From: Candidatus Methylomirabilota bacterium
GTDB taxonomy: Bacteria > Methylomirabilota > Methylomirabilia > Methylomirabilales > Methylomirabilaceae
Direction of reading: 5' to 3'
Assembly (NCBI GenBank): GCA_016200385.1
Contig: JACQEV010000094.1
Coordinates: 1 to 13,377 of the forward strand
DNA length: 13,377 nucleotides
The notes under the pieces are model-generated. The model searched no databases. It was given only the letters and a program-made list of their open reading frames with translations, and was not told where the DNA came from. Position 1 is the stretch's first letter. Every line of letters starts with the position of its first letter. This document shows, piece after piece, positions 739 to 13,377 of the stretch. A program made the position numbers and the translations under genes.

Positions 739-1410
739 ATGTTTAGGTGGCTTCCTGAGATGGTTTCGACCTATGGGGGAGATATCGACGCCATGATGTA
801 CCTGATCTATTACATCGTCGGGGCCTGGTTTCTCCTCACCTGCGGAGCTATGCTTCTGTTTCTGATCCTGTATCGTCGCCGGGAAGGGCGGCGGGCGACC
901 TACATCGAGGGAAACAGCTTGAGGGAGGCTGCCTGGATCCTCGTTCCATGTCTCATCGTCCTTGTCCTCGACCTGTGGATCGATCTTCGCGGCGGAGAAG
1001 TGTGGGCCAAGGTCAAGCGCCATGCTCCGCCAAGTGACCACCGAGTCCAGGTGACGGGGAAGCAGTTCAATTGGGAAATACTGTATCCTGGGCCCGACGG
1101 GCAGTTCGGGACGGGGGACGATCTGCAGTTGGACAACGAGCTTCATGTTCCCGTCAACAAGGTGGTTTGGGTCGTCCTCAAGTCAAAGGATGTCATCCAT
1201 AGCTTCTTTCTACCCCATCTCCGCCTCAAGCAAGACGCCGTGCCGGGACGGGCGATCGAGGCCTGGTTCAAGGCGACCAAACCCGGACGGTACGAGATCC
1301 CCTGCGCTGAGCTGTGTGGGTTTGGACACTCCGGGATGAACGGTTTCCTCATTGTGCATCCCGCCGATGAGTATGAGAGGTGGGTAAAGGAGCACTGGCC
1401 ATCTTCCTAA
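739..1410 (+). CDS. coxB: Cytochrome c oxidase subunit II (CuA)
   Basis: 223-aa electron-entry subunit of an A-type heme-copper oxidase, accepting electrons from cytochrome c through the binuclear CuA centre on the outer face of the membrane. Two transmembrane helices (about 22-45 and 64-82) are followed by a cupredoxin domain (about 100-210). All CuA ligands are visible: H154, then C189, E191, C193, H197 and M200 in CAELCGFGHSGM. E191 also corresponds to the Mg ligand. E63, in the L-x-E-x-x-W segment before helix 2, matches the Glu that opens the K pathway in other oxidases. There is no fused cytochrome c domain at the C-terminus, so it is aa3-like and not caa3-like. A strong Shine-Dalgarno (AAGGAGGG) precedes the ATG. 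It is the first gene of the operon; coxA follows 12 nt later. Confidence 0.97.
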   Translation: MFRWLPEMVSTYGGDIDAMMYLIYYIVGAWFLLTCGAMLLFLILYRRREGRRATYIEGNSLREAAWILVPCLIVLVLDLWIDLRGGEVWAKVKRHAPPSDHRVQVTGKQFNWEILYPGPDGQFGTGDDLQLDNELHVPVNKVVWVVLKSKDVIHSFFLPHLRLKQDAVPGRAIEAWFKATKPGRYEIPCAELCGFGHSGMNGFLIVHPADEYERWVKEHWPSS

Positions 1411-1422
1411 AGGAGGCGATCA

Positions 1423-3114
1423 ATGAGCGCGAGGGTTGAGGTCGAAGAGCGGGTGAGCTTCTTCAGGACGTACGTCTTCTCCATCGATCACAAGATGATC
1501 GCCAAGCAATACCTCGCCATAGGCCTATTCTGGGCCGTCGTGGGAGGGCTGCTGGCGTATCTGCTGCGCTGGCAGCTCGCGTATCCTGACACAGAGGCCC
1601 CAGGATGGGGATTCATTGGGCCGGAATTCTACAACATGCTCGTCACCATGCACGGGACGATCATGGTCTTCTTCGTGGCCATGCCGATCCTCCTTGGGGC
1701 GTTCGGTAACTTCCTGATCCCTCTCATGGTCGGAGCCCGGGACATGGCTTTCCCCCGGCTCAATATGCTCTCCGTCTGGACCCTTGCCCTGTCGTCGCTC
1801 GTCCTTTTGATCTCGTTCTTCGTCCCCGGCGGGGCCGCGTCCGCCGGCTGGACCGGATACCCGCCCCTTTCCGCCAAGCCCATCTACACCGGAGTCAACT
1901 GGGGGCTGAACCTGTGGATCCTGGCGCTCGCTCTGGAGTTCGCCTCGTTCTTGATGAGCGGGATCAATTTCCTGACCACACCCATCAACCTGCGGGCCCC
2001 TGGGATGTCGATGTTCCGCCTGCCCCTCCTTGTTTGGATGCAAATGACTGCGGCCATCCTGTTTATGCTTTCTGTAGGGCCGCTCATTGCAGGGGCGATC
2101 ATGCTTCTACTAGACCGGGTGGCGGGAGCCAGCTTCTACCTCCCGCAAGGGGGTGGCGATCCGCTCCTGTGGCAGCACCTCTTTTGGTTCTTCGGCCATC
2201 CGGAAGTCTACGTCATTTTCCTGCCCGGCCTCGGGATCGTTCTGGAGATCTTCCCCGTCTTTAGCCGGAAGCCGATCTTCGGATACCGCCCGATCATCTA
2301 CTCCACGATCGCGGCAGGGATCTTGAGCTTCACCGTCTGGGCTCACCATCAGTTTATCAGCGGCATGGACCCTCGGCTCGCCATGCCCTTCAGCGTCACC
2401 ACGATCCTCATCTCAGTGCCCTTCGCCCTCATGGTCTTCGCCATGATCGCCACCCTCTGGGGCGGATCGATCAGTTTCCCAACCCCCATGCTCTTTGCCT
2501 TAGGTACGCTGGCCGTATTCCTGATCGGGGGCTTAACAGGCATCTTCAACGGCTCGGCTCCGGTGGACATCTACATCCACAGCACCTACTTTGTGGTTGC
2601 CCACTTTCACTACACCCTCTTCAGCGCCCTCTTCTTTGCGGGGTTTGCCGGCCTCTACTTCTGGTTCCCGAAGATGTTCGGCCGCATGATGAACGAGGCG
2701 CTAGGGAAGCTCCACTTCTGGCTGACCTTCCTGCTCTTTAACGCGGTCTTCATCCCGATGTTCTTGCTGGGCGCCGGGGGGATGATGCGGCGTATCGCCA
2801 ATCCGATGCAGTATGAGTTCCTGCGGCCACTCCAGCCACTCAACACATTTGCCACCATCGCGACGATCCTCCTCCTCCTTGCGCAGCTCCCCTTCGTGGT
2901 CAACTTCTTCTGGAGCCTGTTCGCCGGGAAAGTGGCGGAGCGGAACCCCTGGCAGGCCAACACGCTGGAGTGGAGCGCGCCCTCGCCCCCGCCCCACGGC
3001 AACTTCGACACCGTCCCGGTCGTCTATCGGGGGCCTTATGAGTACAGCCACCCTTCGGTCTCAGAAGAATGGCTCCCGCAGGACCGTCCGACTATGCCGA
3101 CGGCGACAGCATAG
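1423..3114 (+). CDS. coxA: Cytochrome c oxidase subunit I, A1-type but lacking K-pathway residues
   Basis: 563-aa catalytic subunit, usual family length, with about 12 transmembrane helices; it reduces O2 to water at the heme a3-CuB site. Metal ligands are complete: H77 and H396 (low-spin heme), H259, H308 and H309 (CuB) and H394 (heme a3). The cross-linking Tyr is Y263 in GHPEVY, with E261 marking the A1 subtype. D-pathway residues are kept: D107, N96, N114, N182 and E261. The K pathway is not. By eye alignment to the Rhodobacter/Paracoccus enzymes, K362 is M337, T359 is F334 and S299 is L274. The Mg ligand Asp (412) is S387. R456-R457, at the heme propionates, are present. AAAGGAGG precedes the ATG. 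It is an O2 reductase by ligand set; reduced pumping or an altered reaction cycle is inference. Confidence 0.97.
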   Translation: MSARVEVEERVSFFRTYVFSIDHKMIAKQYLAIGLFWAVVGGLLAYLLRWQLAYPDTEAPGWGFIGPEFYNMLVTMHGTIMVFFVAMPILLGAFGNFLIPLMVGARDMAFPRLNMLSVWTLALSSLVLLISFFVPGGAASAGWTGYPPLSAKPIYTGVNWGLNLWILALALEFASFLMSGINFLTTPINLRAPGMSMFRLPLLVWMQMTAAILFMLSVGPLIAGAIMLLLDRVAGASFYLPQGGGDPLLWQHLFWFFGHPEVYVIFLPGLGIVLEIFPVFSRKPIFGYRPIIYSTIAAGILSFTVWAHHQFISGMDPRLAMPFSVTTILISVPFALMVFAMIATLWGGSISFPTPMLFALGTLAVFLIGGLTGIFNGSAPVDIYIHSTYFVVAHFHYTLFSALFFAGFAGLYFWFPKMFGRMMNEALGKLHFWLTFLLFNAVFIPMFLLGAGGMMRRIANPMQYEFLRPLQPLNTFATIATILLLLAQLPFVVNFFWSLFAGKVAERNPWQANTLEWSAPSPPPHGNFDTVPVVYRGPYEYSHPSVSEEWLPQDRPTMPTATA

Positions 3115-3139
3115 CCGTCTACAAACAGGAGGCACAAAC

Positions 3140-3750
<611 letters not shown>

Positions 3751-3751
<1 letters not shown>

Positions 3752-4026
3752 TGGCTCGCGAACTGGTGCATCCCAACTACGTGGCCGTGTGGGTGTGGCT
3801 GGTGGCGCTCCTGATCGCGTCCGTGGGGGTAACAACCCTCCCCATTTCGACAGGGATTGTCCTACTTCTGATCTTCGCCATGGCTGTCGTGAAGGCCATC
3901 TTGGTGGCCCTCAACTACATGCATCTCAAATCTGAGCAGCTTCTCATCTGCGCGATGGCGATCGTCCCGCTTGTGATCTTCTTCATCCTGTGGATTGTGC
4001 TGTACCCCGATATCGCCCTCCATTAG
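3751..4026 (+). CDS. coxD: Cytochrome c oxidase subunit IV, prokaryotic type
   Basis: 91-aa, three-helix membrane protein of the prokaryotic subunit IV family, a small accessory subunit of A-type oxidases. Helices lie at about 11-30, 35-56 and 64-86. The conserved family signature ALNYMHLK (residues 53-60) is at the end of helix 2. The start is the ATG at 3751, overlapping the coxC stop (TGATG), with its ribosome site AAAGGAGG inside the end of coxC; an upstream ATG at 3730 would only re-read coxC sequence. A paralogue (10496-10816) in the second oxidase locus shares the MHLK motif. Confidence 0.93.
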
Positions 4027-4090
4027 CGGGATTGCCGTGTCGAACCGAGGTCCTCGCACTGAAGAATTGGCTTCAAGTGGTGTCTGCGTG

Positions 4091-4987
4091 ATGCCCAGGA
4101 CGGAGACCGCGCACGCCGAACAGAGACCCACGCGCCGACGCGCTGTGGATTTTCTCGCCCTCACCAGGCCCAGGGTCGTCCTGATGGTCTTGGTCACGAC
4201 CTTGGTCGGGTTTTTCCTAGCCTCTCAGAGAGCGGTGGATGCTGTCCTTCTTTTGAAGACGCTCCTCGGCACGGGGCTGGCAGCGGGCGGAACGGCAGCT
4301 CTGAACCAGTACCTTGAGCGCGATGTAGATAGAAGGATGGCGCGCACGCGTCTGAGGCCTCTGCCCGATGGGCGGCTCAAGCCATCCGAGGCGCTCATCT
4401 TCGGGATGGCGATAACCGCTTTGGGCCTTCTGGACCTTCTCCTGGCCGTGAGCTCGCTGAGTGCCCTTGTAACGGCGATCAGCGTGGTGAGCTATCTCTT
4501 CCACTACACGCCGCTCAAGCGAAAGTCTCCCTTGAGCACCCTCGTCGGAGCGATCCCGGGAGCCTTGCCGCCGGTGGCCGGCTGGGCAGCGGCACGAGGC
4601 GAACTGAGCCTTGAGGCCTGGGTCCTCTTTGCGATCCTGTTTCTCTGGCAGATCCCCCACGCGCTGGCGATCACCTGGCTCTATCGTGAGGACTACGCCG
4701 GGGCTGGGTTTCGGCTCCTTCCGGTCATCGACCCGAGTGGGAGGAGGACGGCACTTTCGATCATCAGCCACTGCTCGGCACTCCTCTTCGTGGGCCTTCT
4801 GCCGACCGCGATAGGGCTGGCGGGCTCAGTCTATTTCTTTGGAGCCTTCGTGTTGGGGGTTGTGTTCCTTGGATGCGGAATCGGTCTGGCGAGCTCCCAC
4901 TCGGCCAAAGCCGCCCGGCGCCTACTTCACGCTTCCCTCCTGTATCTCCCGATGCTGCTCCTGCTGATGGCTCTCGACAAGGCTTAG
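4091..4987 (+). CDS. ctaB: Protoheme IX farnesyltransferase (heme O synthase)
   Basis: 298-aa polytopic UbiA-family prenyltransferase that adds farnesyl to heme b to give heme O, the precursor of the heme a used by the oxidase. The first Asp-rich motif LNQYLERDVDRRMARTRLRP, the cytoplasmic loop YTPLKRKSPL, GAIPGALPPVAGWAAARG and the second motif REDYAGAGFRLLP are all present, with about nine hydrophobic segments. The ATG at 4091 gives the usual family length; a GTG at 4037 in the same frame is an alternative. Neither has a strong ribosome site. It ends the first oxidase operon, 64 nt after coxD. A second, diverged copy (roughly two-thirds identical over the shared part) lies at the right end of the window. 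No ctaA (heme A synthase) is seen here. Confidence 0.95.
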   Translation: MPRTETAHAEQRPTRRRAVDFLALTRPRVVLMVLVTTLVGFFLASQRAVDAVLLLKTLLGTGLAAGGTAALNQYLERDVDRRMARTRLRPLPDGRLKPSEALIFGMAITALGLLDLLLAVSSLSALVTAISVVSYLFHYTPLKRKSPLSTLVGAIPGALPPVAGWAAARGELSLEAWVLFAILFLWQIPHALAITWLYREDYAGAGFRLLPVIDPSGRRTALSIISHCSALLFVGLLPTAIGLAGSVYFFGAFVLGVVFLGCGIGLASSHSAKAARRLLHASLLYLPMLLLLMALDKA

Positions 4988-7553: not shown

Positions 7554-8669
7554 ATGGCCAGAGGAGCGGACGTCATCATTATCGGAGGCGGGATCATCGG
7601 CGTCGCATGCGCGTACGCCCTCACGCGTGCTGGGGTGCGCCGGGTGGTGCTGGTTGAGAGGGGAGAGCTGGGACGAGAAGCCTCGCGAGCTGCTGCGGGG
7701 ATGTTGGCGCCACAGGCGGAAGCGGAAAGCCTCGGGCCCTTCCTTGACCTATGCCTGGCCGCGCGGGATCGTTACCGGACGTTGGAGGGCGAACTTCGGG
7801 ACGCCACCGGAGAAGACATCGAGTATTGCAATTGGGGACTTCTCTACCTCGTTGACCCGGCTGAGCATGAGGCGGCGCGAGGGCGGGCGCGATGGCAGCG
7901 GGAAGCGGGGCTCCGAGTCGAGGAGATCTCCGGCCAGGCATTGCGCTCCTTGGAGCCCCTTCTGAATCCGGAGATCGGCGGCGCCCTCCTCTTTCCGGAC
8001 GAGGCCCATGTCCGCCCGTGCGCGGTTGTCCGAGCGCTCACAGCTGGTGCGCGGGAACGAGGCGCCCAGGTCTTCGAGAAGGTGGAGGCTGTCGATTTCA
8101 TCATCGGCGAGGATCGGCTTCGCGGGGTCAGGGCCGGAGGGGAGACAATCCTGGCCGACAGCATTGTGGCCTGTGCCGGCCCGTGGACCGGCCGCCTCCT
8201 GGATCTGGTTGGGCACGGGCTTCCCACAGAGCCTGTCCGGGGTCAGATCGTTCGGGCCAGGTTCGACCGCCCTCCCCTCACTCATCTTGTTTGGGGTCCA
8301 CGAGGATACCTGGTGCCTCGACTCAATGGTGAGCTTTTGATAGGGGCTACAGTGGAGCGGGCGGGATTCGATGCGACCCCCACGCTGGGGGGTGTGGCGG
8401 GCCTGTGCGAAGCTGCAAGGGCCATGGCCCCAGGTCTGATGGCCGCCCCTTTCGACAAGGCGTGGGCAGGGCTGCGTCCGCGACTGCCGGATGGCCTGCC
8501 AGCCATTGGCCGATTCGCCGATATTCCCAATCTGTACGTGGCCACCGGCCACTACCGCAACGGCATCCTCCTGGGCCCCCTGACTGGAGAGTTGATCGCC
8601 GACCTCGTGGTGGGAAAGGAGCCGCCGCTCTCCATGGAACCATTCTCCCCAGACAGGTTTGCCAGGTAA
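7554..8669 (+). CDS. thiO: Glycine oxidase ThiO-like FAD-dependent oxidase
   Basis: 371-aa flavoprotein of the D-amino-acid-oxidase fold. ThiO oxidises glycine to iminoacetate for the thiazole part of thiamine. The Rossmann FAD site is at the N-terminus (IIIGGGIIG, G11-G16, with E35 at the end of beta-2). It is followed by the ThiO-like ASRAAAGMLAPQAE (43-56), PVRGQIVRA, GYLVPRLNGELLIGATVE, WAGLRPRLPDGLPAIGR and C-terminal ATGHYRNGILLGPLTGELIA, whose R335 corresponds to the substrate-carboxylate Arg of the family. GGGAGAGAG precedes the ATG. No thiS, thiG or thiE is adjacent, so the thiamine assignment rests on sequence alone; another amine substrate is possible. It converges with the small gene on the opposite strand, with an 11-nt gap. 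Confidence 0.88.
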   Translation: MARGADVIIIGGGIIGVACAYALTRAGVRRVVLVERGELGREASRAAAGMLAPQAEAESLGPFLDLCLAARDRYRTLEGELRDATGEDIEYCNWGLLYLVDPAEHEAARGRARWQREAGLRVEEISGQALRSLEPLLNPEIGGALLFPDEAHVRPCAVVRALTAGARERGAQVFEKVEAVDFIIGEDRLRGVRAGGETILADSIVACAGPWTGRLLDLVGHGLPTEPVRGQIVRARFDRPPLTHLVWGPRGYLVPRLNGELLIGATVERAGFDATPTLGGVAGLCEAARAMAPGLMAAPFDKAWAGLRPRLPDGLPAIGRFADIPNLYVATGHYRNGILLGPLTGELIADLVVGKEPPLSMEPFSPDRFAR

Positions 8670-9300: not shown

Positions 9301-9735
9301 TCACGAACGGGGATAGAGATGATACAGCATCCAATAGACAATGACCCCGGTGACCGACACGTAGAGCCAGATAGGAAGGGTCCAACGGGCGATCCGAACG
9401 TGCCTGTCGAAGCGCCCTCTCAATGCCCGAGACACCGTGATCAGGGCCAAAGGGAGAATCGCCGCGGCCAGGATCGTGTGGGAGGTCAGGATCGAGAAGT
9501 AGAGCATTCGAATCCCTCCCCGGCCCGCGAATCGGATCGATCCCACGTGATAGTGATACGTGAGATACGAGATCAGGAAAAGGGTGGAGGTCCCGAGGGC
9601 CGACACCATACAGACCTTGTGCGGGGTGATCTTCTTCTTCCGGATGAAAAGGTACCCCACCGCCAGCAAGAGGGCGCTGGTGGCGTTGAGTGCAGCATTG
9701 ACGGCGGGCAGGAACGAGATGGGGAGGACGGTCAT
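9301..9735 (-). CDS. DUF420 membrane protein, oxidase-associated
   Basis: 144-aa membrane protein with four to five helices, matching DUF420. The family includes CtaM of Staphylococcus, needed for assembly of a heme-copper oxidase. Conserved His residues sit at helix ends: H39, H61 and H63 in YHYHVG, H86 in SHT, H112 in RHVRIARWTLPIWLYVSVTG and H139. They could bind heme or copper. The start at 9735 overlaps the sco stop by 4 nt (ATGA), so the two are translationally coupled. It is the last gene of the second oxidase operon. An oxidase-assembly role is inferred from the family and the neighbours. Confidence 0.88.
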   Translation of the reverse strand: MTVLPISFLPAVNAALNATSALLLAVGYLFIRKKKITPHKVCMVSALGTSTLFLISYLTYHYHVGSIRFAGRGGIRMLYFSILTSHTILAAAILPLALITVSRALRGRFDRHVRIARWTLPIWLYVSVTGVIVYWMLYHLYPRS

Positions 9736-10409
9736 TCCTCCTGCAGCAGAGCTTTCACGTCCCGGCGGAGCCTCTGGAGAGAGTCCGCGTCGGTGCTGTC
9801 ACAGTAGCTTCGGATCCTTGCCTTCCGGTCAACGAGGACAAACCTGGAGCTGTGCAGTACCGCGATGCGCCCCGCCCCTTCACTCGCCATCGCGGGCCCA
9901 GGTTCGAGAACCCCAGCCTTGTTTCTTGGATCAAGGATGGGTAGCCGTAGGCCCTCCTGAGCAAGACGATAGATCGCCTCTTTCTCTCCAGTAAGGAAGA
10001 GCCACCGTACGTGGTCGGCCTTGAAGCGGTCAGCGTAGCGAGAGAGGACTTGAGGAGTGTCCCGTTCCGGATCGACAGTGATCGAGGCCAGCCTGACATC
10101 CGATTCGGCCGCGAGGTCAGCCTGAAGCCTGGCCATCTCGGCGCTTTGCAGAGGACACGTATCGGGACAGCGGGTATACATGAAATCGACGACCCAGATC
10201 TTTCCGAGGAACTCTAACCGCTCTACCCTTCGGCCGCTCCGCTCGATCAGGGAGAAATCTGGCAGAGAACCGTACACGGGCAACCGGGATGACCCTCCCG
10301 CCAATCCTCTCACTGCGGCCGTGCGGCCTCGGACCAAGGACCAAGCTCCTGCGCCGCCTACCCCGATCAGGACAAGGATCAGCCCCGCCCAGAGCGCCCT
10401 CTGGAGCAT
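9732..10409 (-). CDS. sco: SCO1/SenC copper chaperone
   Basis: 225-aa membrane-anchored thioredoxin-fold protein that delivers copper to, or reduces the cysteines of, the CuA site of oxidase subunit II. One N-terminal helix (about 6-25) is followed by the Sco domain. It has the copper motif YTRCPDTCP (C81, C85), VDPERDTP (112-119) and the distal ligand H186. The usual distal His is present, so the protein looks functional. I chose the ATG at 10409, with GGAG 5 nt upstream, because a longer frame to 10589 would run into the subunit IV gene and adds unrelated basic sequence. It lies 86 nt after that gene and overlaps the DUF420 start by 4 nt. Confidence 0.93.
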   Translation of the reverse strand: MLQRALWAGLILVLIGVGGAGAWSLVRGRTAAVRGLAGGSSRLPVYGSLPDFSLIERSGRRVERLEFLGKIWVVDFMYTRCPDTCPLQSAEMARLQADLAAESDVRLASITVDPERDTPQVLSRYADRFKADHVRWLFLTGEKEAIYRLAQEGLRLPILDPRNKAGVLEPGPAMASEGAGRIAVLHSSRFVLVDRKARIRSYCDSTDADSLQRLRRDVKALLQEE

Positions 10410-10495
10410 AGGCTCTCCAGGCTGTCTTCTCTGTGCGCTCTGTTTCACCTTTCGACCGAGCCCCTGCCGCGGCGCCAGCGAGCGAGCAGGATGCC

Positions 10496-10816
10496 TCAAT
10501 GGGGAGTTGCGGAGACCTGGGAGGATTCTGTGGTTCGGTGTGGGGTTGCGGAAAGGTCGGGCAACAGCGCAAAAATCAATAGCACACACAGGAGCAACGG
10601 GGTCATGGCAATCAATCCGAGCGTCCGCGCCTCAAATTTGAGGTGCATAAAGTACATCGCGACGAGCGAGGCCTTGGACAGCGCCAGTCCGACGAGAAGG
10701 ATCCCGATGAGGAGTCTCGCAATCGGGAGGAAGATCACTGCCACCTCGATGACCGTGAGCGCGAGAAGCCACCAGAACACACCGATGTAATTTGGTTGTT
10801 TATGAGCAGACGCCAT
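10496..10816 (-). CDS. Cytochrome c oxidase subunit IV, prokaryotic type (second locus)
   Basis: 106-aa three-helix membrane protein homologous to the subunit IV of the first operon: both have a PNY near residues 8-10 and the signature MHLK (AMYFMHLKFEARTLGL here, residues 53-68). Helices are at about 13-30, 35-55 and 64-85. A polar tail of 20 or so residues (TPHRTTESSQ) is absent from the other copy. GAGGAAAAG stands before the ATG. It lies 19 nt after the subunit III gene. Confidence 0.9.
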   Translation of the reverse strand: MASAHKQPNYIGVFWWLLALTVIEVAVIFLPIARLLIGILLVGLALSKASLVAMYFMHLKFEARTLGLIAMTPLLLCVLLIFALLPDLSATPHRTTESSQVSATPH

Positions 10817-10835
10817 CGCTTTTCCTCACCCCTTA

Positions 10836-11453
10836 TTATAACAGATAGACGAAGGTGAATACCAGGATCCACACGAGGTCCACGAAGTGCCAGTACAGCG
10901 CTGCGATCTCAATCGCGTTGGCATTCGCCTGGGTCACTCTCCCCAGGAGGGCCCGAACCAGGTAGCAAGACAGATAGATGACCCCGCCGGTGACGTGAGC
11001 GCCATGAAAGCCCGTGATGATGAAGAAGGTGGTTCCGAAGAGCCGAGCCCCGAATGGGTTACTGGAAAGGGTGAGGCCGCGGTGGATCAGGTGACTCCAC
11101 TCGTAGGCCTGCATGCCCAAGAACATGAGCCCGCCCAGAATCGTCAACAACAGGAAGGTCCGCAGGCCCCGCAGATCCCCCCTCTGGATTGCCGCAAGCG
11201 CAAAGACCATCGTCACGCTGCTGCAAATTAGGAGAAACGTCATGAACGCGGTAAGACCTATTCCCAGCACGCCAGCCGGCACCGGCCAGTCGGTGCTTCC
11301 ATACCGAAGGGCACCGTACCCGGCGAGCAGGGCACCGAAGGACATCGCGTCAGCGGCGAGGAAGATCCACATCCCAAGCTTGCCCCAGCTCTCGGGCGTG
11401 AGGGGCGACTCGGCAGGTTCGACAGCAGTCGTTATCGCAGCGACTTGACTCAA
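10836..11453 (-). CDS. Cytochrome c oxidase subunit III (second locus), TTG start
   Basis: 205-aa five-helix subunit III. It has YEWSHLI (E118), TTFFIITGFHGAHV (H150, H153) and the closing ALYWHFVDLVWILVF. The N-terminal 20 residues are soluble. The start is a TTG at 11453, overlapping the TGA stop of the preceding gene (TTGA), with AAGGAG 8 nt upstream; no ATG in frame would keep the family N-terminal helix, so the TTG is well supported. It is one of two subunit III-like genes in this locus; this is the canonical one. Confidence 0.93.
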   Translation of the reverse strand: MSQVAAITTAVEPAESPLTPESWGKLGMWIFLAADAMSFGALLAGYGALRYGSTDWPVPAGVLGIGLTAFMTFLLICSSVTMVFALAAIQRGDLRGLRTFLLLTILGGLMFLGMQAYEWSHLIHRGLTLSSNPFGARLFGTTFFIITGFHGAHVTGGVIYLSCYLVRALLGRVTQANANAIEIAALYWHFVDLVWILVFTFVYLL

Positions 11454-11809
11454 CTCCCGCTCTCCTTATGTGTCAACTCAGGATTCAAGAAGGGCTCCTC
11501 GCTTCGTGGTTTATCCCTGTGCCAAGGCCGATACATGTAGAAGAGCCACCCCCCGATCAGACCCGCGATCGTGAATGGCATGGTCATCATGAACAGGATC
11601 CCCCAGTTGATGCCCCTGGAAAACGGATCGTCGGGCGAAGAGCCAAAGCAGACCGCGCACGCATGGGCAGCAACCGGACTGAGCAAGGCAATAGTTGCAG
11701 CCGCGATCGCAATGCGCCTAGCGACCGGCGCACATCGGTCATCCAGACCACACCGCGCGCCCACGGCCTGCGCTCGCCCGCGTACGTCTCTGAGCTCTTG
11801 CGGATTCAT
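11450..11809 (-). CDS. Small CAVC-motif membrane protein of the oxidase operon
   Basis: 119-aa hypothetical protein. A basic N-terminal stretch leads to an Arg-Arg and a hydrophobic segment (about 31-49) ending AHA, a likely signal peptide or anchor. HACAVCFGSS (C51, C54) comes next, then a second membrane helix (about 69-93) and a polar tail. Short proteins with a CAVCFG motif occur in oxidase operons of several phyla, as I recall. The external CxxC could bind heme or copper or act on thiols during CuA assembly; its function is not established. The ATG at 11809 overlaps the previous stop by 4 nt (ATGA), and its own TGA overlaps the TTG of the subunit III gene, so it is tightly coupled on both sides. 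A longer frame to 12055 only shadows the neighbour. Confidence 0.8.
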   Translation of the reverse strand: MNPQELRDVRGRAQAVGARCGLDDRCAPVARRIAIAAATIALLSPVAAHACAVCFGSSPDDPFSRGINWGILFMMTMPFTIAGLIGGWLFYMYRPWHRDKPRSEEPFLNPELTHKESGS

Positions 11810-12510
11810 CTCATATACACCAACGCGAAGAGAACGGGCCAGATGGCGATCACGAAGTACCAGTACATCCCGCAGAGATCGACAGCGACGTGATTGCGGG
11901 CCGAGAACCGATTGCCCCGCGCCCCGATAAGGACGATCAGGAGCCAGACCACCGCGCCGAGAACGTGAAGACCATGACAGCCGATTAAAGTATAAAAGGT
12001 CGCGCCGTAGATCCCCGCCGACAACGTGAGGCCGTGCCGAATAAGGCGAACCCATTCGGACCCCTGAATCGCAAGAAACATCGTCCCGATCAACGCTGTC
12101 GCCGAGAGGCCGGTCGCCAGCCCTTTGCAGTCACCGATGCGGATGGCCCGCAGAGCAGAGCGCATCGTATAGCCACTCGAAAGCAAGAAGGCCGTGTTCA
12201 CCAACGTCACCGCGATCGGCAGGCGAGGACGGCCCAACGGGGGCCAGAACGCACTTCCCAGACGAAACACAAGAAACGCACCGATCAATCCGGCGAAGAA
12301 CATCGCCTCGAATCCTAAGAATACCAGCATCCCCAGTCGAGCGTTGCTGACCGGTGGCGCTGCCTTGGGCCCAGGAGACGACGGGAAGGGATCCTCACCA
12401 AAGGGTGGTCCCGGGGGAAGCGGCGGCCCCGCTCCCAGGTTCGGGGAGACCGGCCTGGCTTCATCGACTATCGTGTCGACCACGGAAGTTATCACGTCTG
12501 CACGTGGCAT
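11806..12510 (-). CDS. Cytochrome c oxidase subunit III-like protein, divergent
   Basis: 234-aa membrane protein of the subunit III family with five helices, preceded by an unusual Pro/Gly-rich soluble N-terminus (GAGPPLPPGPPFGED, about 26-40). Family features are GFEAMFFAGLIGAF (E68), SEWVRLI (E152), ATFYTLIGCHGLHVLG (H179, H182) and MYWYFVIAIWPVLFALVYM, in which the usual YWHFVD has become YWYFVI. It is thus diverged from the canonical subunit III two genes downstream; together they may form two bundles or one may act in assembly. AAGGA lies 8 nt before the ATG. It overlaps the CAVC gene by 4 nt. Confidence 0.9.
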   Translation of the reverse strand: MPRADVITSVVDTIVDEARPVSPNLGAGPPLPPGPPFGEDPFPSSPGPKAAPPVSNARLGMLVFLGFEAMFFAGLIGAFLVFRLGSAFWPPLGRPRLPIAVTLVNTAFLLSSGYTMRSALRAIRIGDCKGLATGLSATALIGTMFLAIQGSEWVRLIRHGLTLSAGIYGATFYTLIGCHGLHVLGAVVWLLIVLIGARGNRFSARNHVAVDLCGMYWYFVIAIWPVLFALVYMR

Positions 12511-12553
12511 CTCATGATCCTTCAGGGTGCTGGAGGATGTGCGTCCGCTCCCC

Positions 12554-12679
12554 CTACCCCCAATGCCGTATCACGATGAAGAGTACCGACCCTACCCAGA
12601 GCGCGATAAACACCCCGGCCAGGATGATCCCCACGCGCCGATTCCTCTGCCGTATATCGAAAGGCACAACCCACGACAT
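12554..12679 (-). CDS. Short one-helix membrane protein of the oxidase operon
   Basis: 41-aa protein from this start: SWVVPFDIRQRNRRVG, one membrane helix (about 16-36) and a short tail ending RHWG. It resembles the short cytochrome oxidase assembly proteins found in such operons (basic segment plus one helix), though this is by pattern only. The start is uncertain. The frame stays open upstream, with ATGs at 12700, 12718 and 12835, all inside or at the edge of an inserted repeat element. I prefer 12679 because removing that element joins the ctaB stop to this ATG with 2 nt between. None of the starts has a good ribosome site, so coupling to ctaB is likely. It could be longer by up to 52 residues if the element is translated. 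Confidence 0.6.
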   Translation of the reverse strand: MSWVVPFDIRQRNRRVGIILAGVFIALWVGSVLFIVIRHWG

Positions 12680-12682
12680 CCC

Positions 12683-12853
12683 TAGTACCGTTCCAACCAT
12701 TTGTGGCGACTTCGCCATTCCGCGCGGTCGCGACCATTGCCGCCTCGTAGGGGGGCGACCCGCCGGGTCGCCCCTACCATTCGGCGCATCCCGTTCCAAC
12801 GCCTTGGCGTGGGGACCCATGCCATACGGTGGCATCCCGTTGGAACGGTACTA
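12683..12853. mobile_element. MITE-like structured element with 15-bp terminal inverted repeats
   Basis: TAGTACCGTTCCAAC (12683-12697) is repeated exactly in inverse at 12839-12853, bounding 171 bp. The outer TA on each side fits a TA target duplication, as for Tc1/mariner or IS630-type MITEs. The interior is crowded with palindromes: TGGCGA-CT-TCGCCA (12704-12717), GGTCGCGACC (12725-12734), a long G-rich hairpin (12747-12777), ACGCC-TT-GGCGT (12799-12810) and ATGCCA...TGGCAT (12819-12835). The arm core CCGTTCCAAC occurs a third time at 12791-12800. There is no transposase. Its right repeat contains the ctaB stop codon and its left repeat abuts the start of the one-helix gene. Confidence 0.65.
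12747..12777. repeat. G-rich palindromic repeat inside the element
   Basis: GTAGGGGGGCGACCC (12747-12761) pairs with GGGTCGCCCCTAC (12765-12777) across a GCC loop, with two extra G on the left arm. It resembles the dispersed GGGCGACCC-type intergenic palindromes found in many bacterial genomes, from memory, and may be an older repeat nested in the larger element. Confidence 0.6.
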
Positions 12854-13377
12854 AAATGGAACCTTGTCAAGGGCCATCAGCACCAGCAGCGCCGGCAGGT
12901 ACACGATCGACGCGAAGACGAGCCGCCGCGCATCCGCAATCGATCGCGACAAGGCAAGCGCAACTCCGCAGCCGAGCAGGCCAGCGCCAAGCCCTAACGC
13001 GCCAAAAAAATAGACTGAGCCTGCAAACCCGATGAGCGTCGGCAATAAGCCTACAACGAGCAAGGCCAAGCAATTGCTGACGATCTGACGCCCGGTGATT
13101 CTCCCATCCGGATCGACCACAGGGAGGACCCGGATCCCCGCGCGGGCATAGTCGTCGCGATACAGTCTGGCGATCGCCAGAGTATGTGGAAGCTGCCAGA
13201 GAAACAGGATTGAAAAGAGAACCCAGGCTTCGAGGCCAAGCGCGCCCCTGGCTGCGGCCCAGCCGATCACTGGTGGCAACGCGCCAGGAATTGCGCCCAC
13301 AACACTGCAGAGCGGAGTCTTCCGTTTGAGCGGAGTGTACAGAAAGAGGTAGCTGCCCACAATGATCGCCGCCACCA
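12851..13377 (-). CDS. ctaB: Protoheme IX farnesyltransferase, second copy (5-prime part beyond window)
   Basis: The last 175 or so residues of a heme O synthase; the N-terminal part with the first Asp-rich motif lies beyond the right end. Visible are YTPLKRKTPL, GAIPGALPPVIGWAAARG, the second motif YRDDYARAGIRVLPVVDPDG and four to five helices, closing with LPALLVLMALDKVPF. It is clearly a paralogue of the copy at 4091-4987 (about two-thirds identical by eye) and presumably serves the second oxidase. The TAG stop lies inside the right terminal repeat of the inserted element, but the reconstructed pre-insertion sequence still has TAG there, so the protein end is probably native. A GTG near 13375 is internal, not the true start. 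Confidence 0.94.
   Translation of the reverse strand, partial: VAAIIVGSYLFLYTPLKRKTPLCSVVGAIPGALPPVIGWAAARGALGLEAWVLFSILFLWQLPHTLAIARLYRDDYARAGIRVLPVVDPDGRITGRQIVSNCLALLVVGLLPTLIGFAGSVYFFGALGLGAGLLGCGVALALSRSIADARRLVFASIVYLPALLVLMALDKVPF

Follow-up and report, generated by a model that had tools for sequence, protein, structure and literature searches.

It has long been debated why there are two proton inputs in A-type heme-copper oxidases and whether re-protonation of their active-site tyrosine (Tyr288) is possible from the D side, and the tests so far have mainly used mutants. A natural case is offered by the window, the whole 13,377-base contig of a Candidatus Methylomirabilota genome (G000, of the same genus as the closed genome G025), on which an earlier note had seen an A-type oxidase with its K pathway replaced by hydrophobic residues. 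How, then, might such an enzyme obtain its protons? In the A type, the D path carries all of the pumped and most of the chemical protons, and the K path, which ends at the Tyr, brings in one or two during the reductive phase (PMC8079940, PMC8780969). The reading preferred here is that the window enzyme is, on balance, probably a working A-family CuA cytochrome c oxidase whose protons for O2 reduction enter through a modified D pathway only. The broader proposition, of a natural and widespread D-only oxygen reductase in which the path from D132 to E286, together with Glu197, would supply all chemical and pumped protons, is put forward more tentatively, at a little under an even chance.

The window operon and its subunit I

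On the plus strand, positions 739 to 4987 hold the genes for subunits II, I, III and IV and the heme o synthase of an A-type oxidase. Subunit I (1423 to 3114), a CtaD/CoxA-like cytochrome c oxidase of 563 amino acids without the K-pathway residues, matches PF00115 with 478.7 bits; its TIGR02891 (NCBIfam CtaD_CoxA) score of 608.1 bits is below the curated cut-off of 670.75, a shortfall that cannot be pinned on K loss, as the score covers the window enzyme alone. Subunit II (739 to 1410; TIGR02866 above cut-off) contains the CuA motif CAELCGFGHSGM, which fits the ligand pattern C-x-E-x-C-x3-H-x2-M, and has E63 (925 to 927) at the K-pathway entrance. The operon continues with subunit III (3140 to 3751), whose top family matches are oxidase subunit III models, all below their cut-offs, a caa3-type subunit IV (3751 to 4026; TIGR02229 35.7 bits, just below the cut-off of 37.25) and the heme o synthase CyoE/CtaB (4091 to 4987; TIGR01473 above cut-off). 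Upstream of the operon lies an Rrf2-type regulator (14 to 469), and an Rrf2-like gene is also found near the K-less genes of loci L116 and L201. Downstream is an FAD oxidoreductase (DAO; 7554 to 8669), and a DAO gene comes immediately after subunit IV in L199, L200 and L206.

The K channel of the Paracoccus enzyme consists of Lys354, Thr351, Ser291 and Tyr280 (PMC3084760). In the window enzyme the counterparts of Lys354, Thr351 and Ser291, which mark the K channel of A-type oxidases, are M337, F334 and L274. By Rhodobacter sphaeroides numbering, used below for alignment positions, these are K362 (2431 to 2433), T359 in helix VIII (2422 to 2424) and S299 in helix VI (2242 to 2244), as the earlier note had it; alignment to solved structures, gapless at both helices, bore out this assignment and placed no Lys at 362, and position 365 is A340. 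The R. sphaeroides K362M structure (PDB 3om3) ranked second among the structural matches, level with other Rhodobacter entries. Judged by A-type criteria taken from PMC3084760, the other active-site residues that were checked are kept, and so are the D-pathway residues named in the note: the ligands H77, H259, H308, H309, H394 and H396 are present with the cross-linked helix-VI Tyr, Y263 (Tyr-I), and P. denitrificans Asp124, Asn199, Asn113, Asn131, Ser134 and Glu278 are represented by D107, N182, N96, N114, S117 and E261. As to the rest of the published D-channel list, Ser193 is Phe in the window enzyme and Tyr35 lay outside the comparison. The presence of D-channel residues separates the enzyme from the B and C types, which lack them.

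That the residues are misassigned, or that the gene is an assembly error or dying, is scarcely credible: nothing was found to support it, and against it stand 251 non-redundant sequences, the gapless alignment at both helices, and the retained ligands and operon. The alignments to structures ruled out a misaligned helix VIII, and the kept active-site ligands and cox operon ruled out gene decay. NO reductase identity was likewise excluded by motif, as both H-X-Arom-X-E and HH-X-Arom-Arom-X17-E are missing from the window sequence, which has HPEVY and HHQFI instead.

The minus strand from 9301 to 13375 carries another oxidase cluster, separate from the K-less enzyme and truncated where the contig ends, with genes for a DUF420 protein, an SCO-like protein, subunit IV, two subunits III, a small Cys protein and CyoE. 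The genes follow the order (CyoE, small gene, subunit III, small Cys protein, subunit III, further genes) of the clusters behind K-bearing subunit I genes in L004, L011 and L205, the last of which comes from a same-genus genome and had its Lys checked, so the window organism probably also owns a K-bearing oxidase with its subunit I off the contig. A K-bearing subunit I was not found in the 81%-complete G000 assembly. The small Cys-containing protein between the two subunit III genes (11453 to 11806) is a membrane protein. Elsewhere in G000, a weak PF00115 match (20.3 bits, below cut-off; contig C194, 1947 to 2399, L002) falls in a 492-aa frame that is perhaps a NOR-like protein.

Extent and marks of the K-less clade

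As far as sequences tell, the window gene is not one odd gene but belongs to a large bacterial clade. The earlier note had proposed to see whether homologues with Met at 362 form a clade; the Met-bearing protein does belong to one, together with proteins that have Ile, Val, Leu and others at that position. Lys at 362 is absent from all 120 of the best-listed proteins (the best 120 of about 8000 matches, one of them the window's own; P0089 has Ile). Among the named loci (the best 80 of 593), 79 were classified, 21 as K-less clade, 57 as Lys-bearing and L069 as having Phe, and L014 was unclassifiable. With such sampling the distribution counts are lower bounds: a K-less copy is present in at least 25 of 95 Methylomirabilota genomes, among the 30 loci listed, and in at least 13 of the 15 genomes of the window genus. 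Host labels of K-less loci include Binataceae, Deltaproteobacteria, Oligoflexia, Myxococcales, Verrucomicrobiales, Pelagicoccus, Gemmatimonadetes and Saprospiraceae, and protein names extend the clade to Leptospiraceae and Acidobacteria.

The clade sets of 251 and 285 rows were picked as rows without Lys362, which makes its absence there true by construction; the real tests are therefore the lack of any K-bearing leaf within the clade and the pattern at E197, S356 and Glu101. In a FastTree tree built without the trait columns, none of the clade's 120 leaves was K-bearing and support was 0.97; support was only 0.61 in the first tree, trait columns included, and 100/100 on 12 representatives under a site-heterogeneous model with those columns left out. 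The 285 clade rows and 121 Bacteriovoracia rows include near-duplicates, with 251 and 101 remaining at <99% identity, and the 92 K-bearing comparison sequences are Methylomirabilota relatives and named loci, not the whole A-family diversity.

Between these 251 and 92 sequences, the K-path residues are lost jointly throughout the clade, which speaks for an exclusive D input. Position 299 is Ser in 92/92 K-bearing sequences and in 10/251 of the clade; position 359 is Ser or Thr in all 92 and Phe, Ile, Leu or Val in all 251. Position 362 is polar (T, S, N or C) in 11/251, and the Ser kept at 365 in 67/251 counts against the D-only reading. At the entrance, the Glu101 column of a subunit II alignment from the same loci holds Glu in 66/66 distinct K-bearing operons versus 11 of 40 clade operons, the others having Q, H, G, T, K, L, I or V in its place. 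(The first subunit II set had 68 K-bearing rows, a number that includes two second copies of a single gene, and its 28 rows without K include L069, which lies outside the clade and has His at this position; in L203 the Glu seems kept, as read by eye rather than aligned.) The earlier note had remarked that E63 is still present in the window; the Glu is indeed there, but the hint is misleading, as Glu101 is lost in 29 of the 40 clade operons, which makes E63 a survivor, and the idea that it signals an intact K entrance was rejected. These counts indicate that the K route has decayed across the clade from Glu101 through S299, 359, K362 and 365.

Retention of Glu101 is split between 10 of 27 clade operons without Glu361 and 1 of 13 with it, Glu361 being an acid next to the lost Lys that defines a nested group (13/92 rows in the first set, 34/120 in the second). 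This group includes L010, L013, L015, L024 and others, and its subunit II mostly has K/R before Trp, replacing the LE..W motif. Contigs labelled Myxococcota, Gemmatimonadetes and Verrucomicrobiales, among others, carry the Glu361 type, as does L026, labelled a Klebsiella pneumoniae MAG, a label that is probably wrong.

On the D side, D132, N139, S142 and N207 are found in 285/285 clade rows, a conservation that favours D-only operation, and E286, N121 and Y288 in 284/284 aligned rows, near-duplicates included in both counts; the His ligands are kept across the 285 save in one row with Q at 334. Two residues occur in 251/251 clade sequences versus 0/92 K-bearing ones. The first, E172 of the window enzyme (1936 to 1938, helix IV), is a new Glu at S197, and the second, S331 (2413 to 2415, helix VIII), stands at A356 on the upper wall of the K channel. 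S197 is listed as D-channel lining, and A356 and G327 as K-channel lining, in PMC10341450, and the orientation of Glu197 toward the D water chain is taken from its column in that source, not from distance. Less exclusive marks are F176 (1948 to 1950), at the D-channel Ser S201 (Pd Ser193), which is Phe in 226/251 of the clade and Ser in 75/92 K-bearing sequences, and S302 (2326 to 2328, helix VII), at G327 on the K-channel wall, which is Ser in 239/251 and 37/92. In the 285-row set, Arg or Lys at 343 (276 rows) and Tyr or His at 71 (278 rows) are further marks.

Lys362 is also missing outside the main clade. In L069 and 120 relatives, named as Bacteriovoracaceae, Halobacteriovoraceae and Bacteriovorax, position 362 is F or L, and S299, S359 and N365 are kept. 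Glu197 is found in 0/101 of this Bacteriovoracia group at <99% identity, and such loss of K362 without E197 counts against the D-only reading. The group (L069, 9977 to 11698, and P0241 to P0360, including Bacteriovorax sp. PP10) amounts to a near single-site natural replacement of K362; in the L069 genome its oxidase is the only PF00115 match, with no cytochrome bd above cut-off. Two further proteins, L174 (G100) and L183 (G106), have Ile at 362 and Ser356 and lack Glu197; both genomes carry the Glu361 type as well. Ser356 occurs in 101/101 of the Bacteriovoracia group and in both L174 and L183, and accompanies Lys362 loss in 354/355 of the non-redundant K-less sequences here. The exception is a second COX1 in L170 (G095, Pelagicoccus), with Gln at 362 and Ala356; in this 860-aa frame, I121, S139 and E207 are non-standard, and D132 and E286 are kept, according to a 35%-identity alignment.

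The association of Ser356 with K362 loss possibly stems from a single event. Each of the three main K-less groups is a supported clade (100/100) when the trait columns are omitted, and an AU test did not reject one K-less clade, whether for all three groups (p 0.705) or for the main and Bacteriovoracia groups (p 0.712); the tree constrained to hold them together scored 9.4 log units above the quick free one. A careful 32-row tree needs two changes and puts L174/L183 next to the main clade, with support of 84/88. The FastTree result had seemed to show separate losses, with Ser356 reached by convergence; after the AU test, the losses may have been separate or a single one. Within the main clade, a single stem branch gave rise to both E197 and S356, and their link with K loss is thus one correlated event, another point against the D-only reading.

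Proton supply without a K pathway

The contention that an enzyme with this set of residues must use another route, have a changed mechanism or do something other than oxidase turnover holds in part: with the canonical K pathway gone, another proton supply is needed. Under the preferred reading, Glu197 would act with Glu286 as a second internal acid, and with these two acids the D pathway could also deliver the reductive-phase protons. Ser356, along with Ser327 and Thr352, would form a local polar pocket that keeps Tyr288 hydrogen-bonded, and Tyr288, so held, would be re-protonated from the side of the binuclear centre. Should the D input alone supply all protons, an A-family enzyme could reduce O2 without needing the K pathway. 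Counting against this mechanism, no proton-uptake assay of a clade enzyme turned up in the open-access literature, laboratory mutants of the K pathway block heme a3 reduction (PMC12901375), and in the oxidised form no chain of water connects the end of the D channel with the centre (PMC10341450). Additionally, E300, near the old K entrance, is acidic in 250/250 aligned members, and Ser356 and Ser327, plus Thr320, Thr234 and Gln/Glu232 in the window's branch, are on or possibly facing the K side.

These residues are the substance of the main alternative, itself rather unlikely, in which the K route has been relocated, and Tyr288 is protonated from the K side through Ser327, Ser356, then Thr320, Thr234 and Gln232 in the window's branch or Glu361 in the nested subclade, from an entrance other than Glu101. 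Besides the K-lining location and near-universality of S356 and S327 and the acid adjoining 362 in the nested group, the alternative draws on the 79 rows without Glu361 of the first set, where T320 occurs in 75, T234 in 71 and Q/E232 in 63. However, this lower path through helices V to VIII, good in the first alignment, is not kept clade-wide: Thr occupies position 320 in just 165/251 sequences when the clade is sampled more widely, and T234 and Q232 are variable in that sampling. A search for a substitute polar path, which the note had called for, found at the level of sequence no position that is ≥90% polar in the clade, either in helix VI from Y288 to E300 or in helix VIII from S356 to T369, so no common substitute chain is seen in the lower halves of these helices; the frequent loss of Glu101 tells against relocation as well.

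A changed job, with O2 reduced but slowly, without pumping or for high-affinity scavenging, or with NO mainly turned over in nitrite-reducing hosts, is improbable, and non-oxidase roles in general are less likely than either a D-only or a relocated K supply; here the earlier contention fares poorly. Such a job would suit Methylomirabilis, which is thought to make O2 from nitrite via NO disproportionation (PMC3413370, PMC3653055), and would accord with the impairment of K-pathway mutants of known enzymes (PMC12901375). However, clade hosts are also labelled Myxococcales, Verrucomicrobiales, Gemmatimonadetes and others, the NOR motifs are absent, and the enzyme retains Tyr288, the His ligands, E286 and the CuA motif within a normal cox operon. 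Moreover, three Methylomirabilis genomes have no A-type COX1 other than the K-less gene: G025 (closed, one contig, 2,752,854 bases, M. oxyfera-like), G022 and G030. The next PF00115 matches in these three reach at most 180 bits, and no match to cytochrome bd was found in any of them; a putative alternative oxidase is present in G025, a point against D-only supply. As the K-less gene is the sole A-type COX1 of M. oxyfera-like G025, it would correspond to Damo_1162 ff., the aa3-type oxidase of M. oxyfera (PMC6094997). Measurements of O2 uptake and spectra point to a bo-type oxidase in M. oxyfera (Wu et al. 2011, as cited in PMC3653055), which may be the product of this or another gene set. Also in G025 is L159 (675041 to 676318), a 478-aa heme-copper protein with Asn for the helix-VI Tyr, adjoining a CuA-type subunit II (CMEYCGLAHFIM) and possibly a CuA nitric oxide reductase.

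The K-less clade among known oxidases

Loss of the K channel is itself already in print: it is described along several lineages of the archaeal tree of A-family oxidases (PMC8239418), and channel residues are known not to be fully conserved (PMC3084760). Those K-lost or variant enzymes are archaeal proteins, in contrast to the bacterial clade described here, and sections 11 and 12 of PMC8239418 name neither this clade nor its Glu197/Ser356. In the open-access literature, the scope of the search, no description was found of a large bacterial K-less, D-intact clade with Glu197/Ser356; an earlier description elsewhere, as in subscription papers, is possible. The clade is a variant of the A type, given that the K-channel residues are lacking and, for what it is worth, that the TIGR02891 cut-off is missed. 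Its value lies in providing natural enzymes, without the K path and with the D path kept, for testing the two-input and Tyr288 questions, with Glu197 and Ser356 as concrete candidate compensations for K loss, and in being the sole A-type oxidase of three methanotrophs thought to make their own O2.

With A1-type aa3/caa3 enzymes (R. sphaeroides, P. denitrificans, mycobacterial aa3), the clade enzyme has in common the fold, heme/CuB ligands, helix-VI Tyr, D pathway with GHPEV motif, CuA subunit II and subunits III/IV; it differs in being without the K pathway and in having Glu at 197, Phe at 201 and Ser at 356. Among its closest K-bearing relatives, at about 60-63% identity, are the PSAIK-type A oxidases of Methylomirabilota and others (L105, L109, L138, L205), which occur alongside the K-less gene in several Methylomirabilota genomes. 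The PSAIK type keeps S299, S359, K362, N365 and Glu101, with a hydrophobic residue at 197 and Ala356, and its gene order, where seen, includes two subunit III genes. R. sphaeroides K362M (PDB 3om3) has Met at 362 like the window enzyme, but is a laboratory mutant in a background with S197 and A356 (lining lists of PMC10341450). The B and C families also have a single proton input, but one that is K-like, with the D path absent (PMC8079940, PMC3084760). The clade is the reverse, and, if the D-only reading is true, would be the mirror image of these K-only families.
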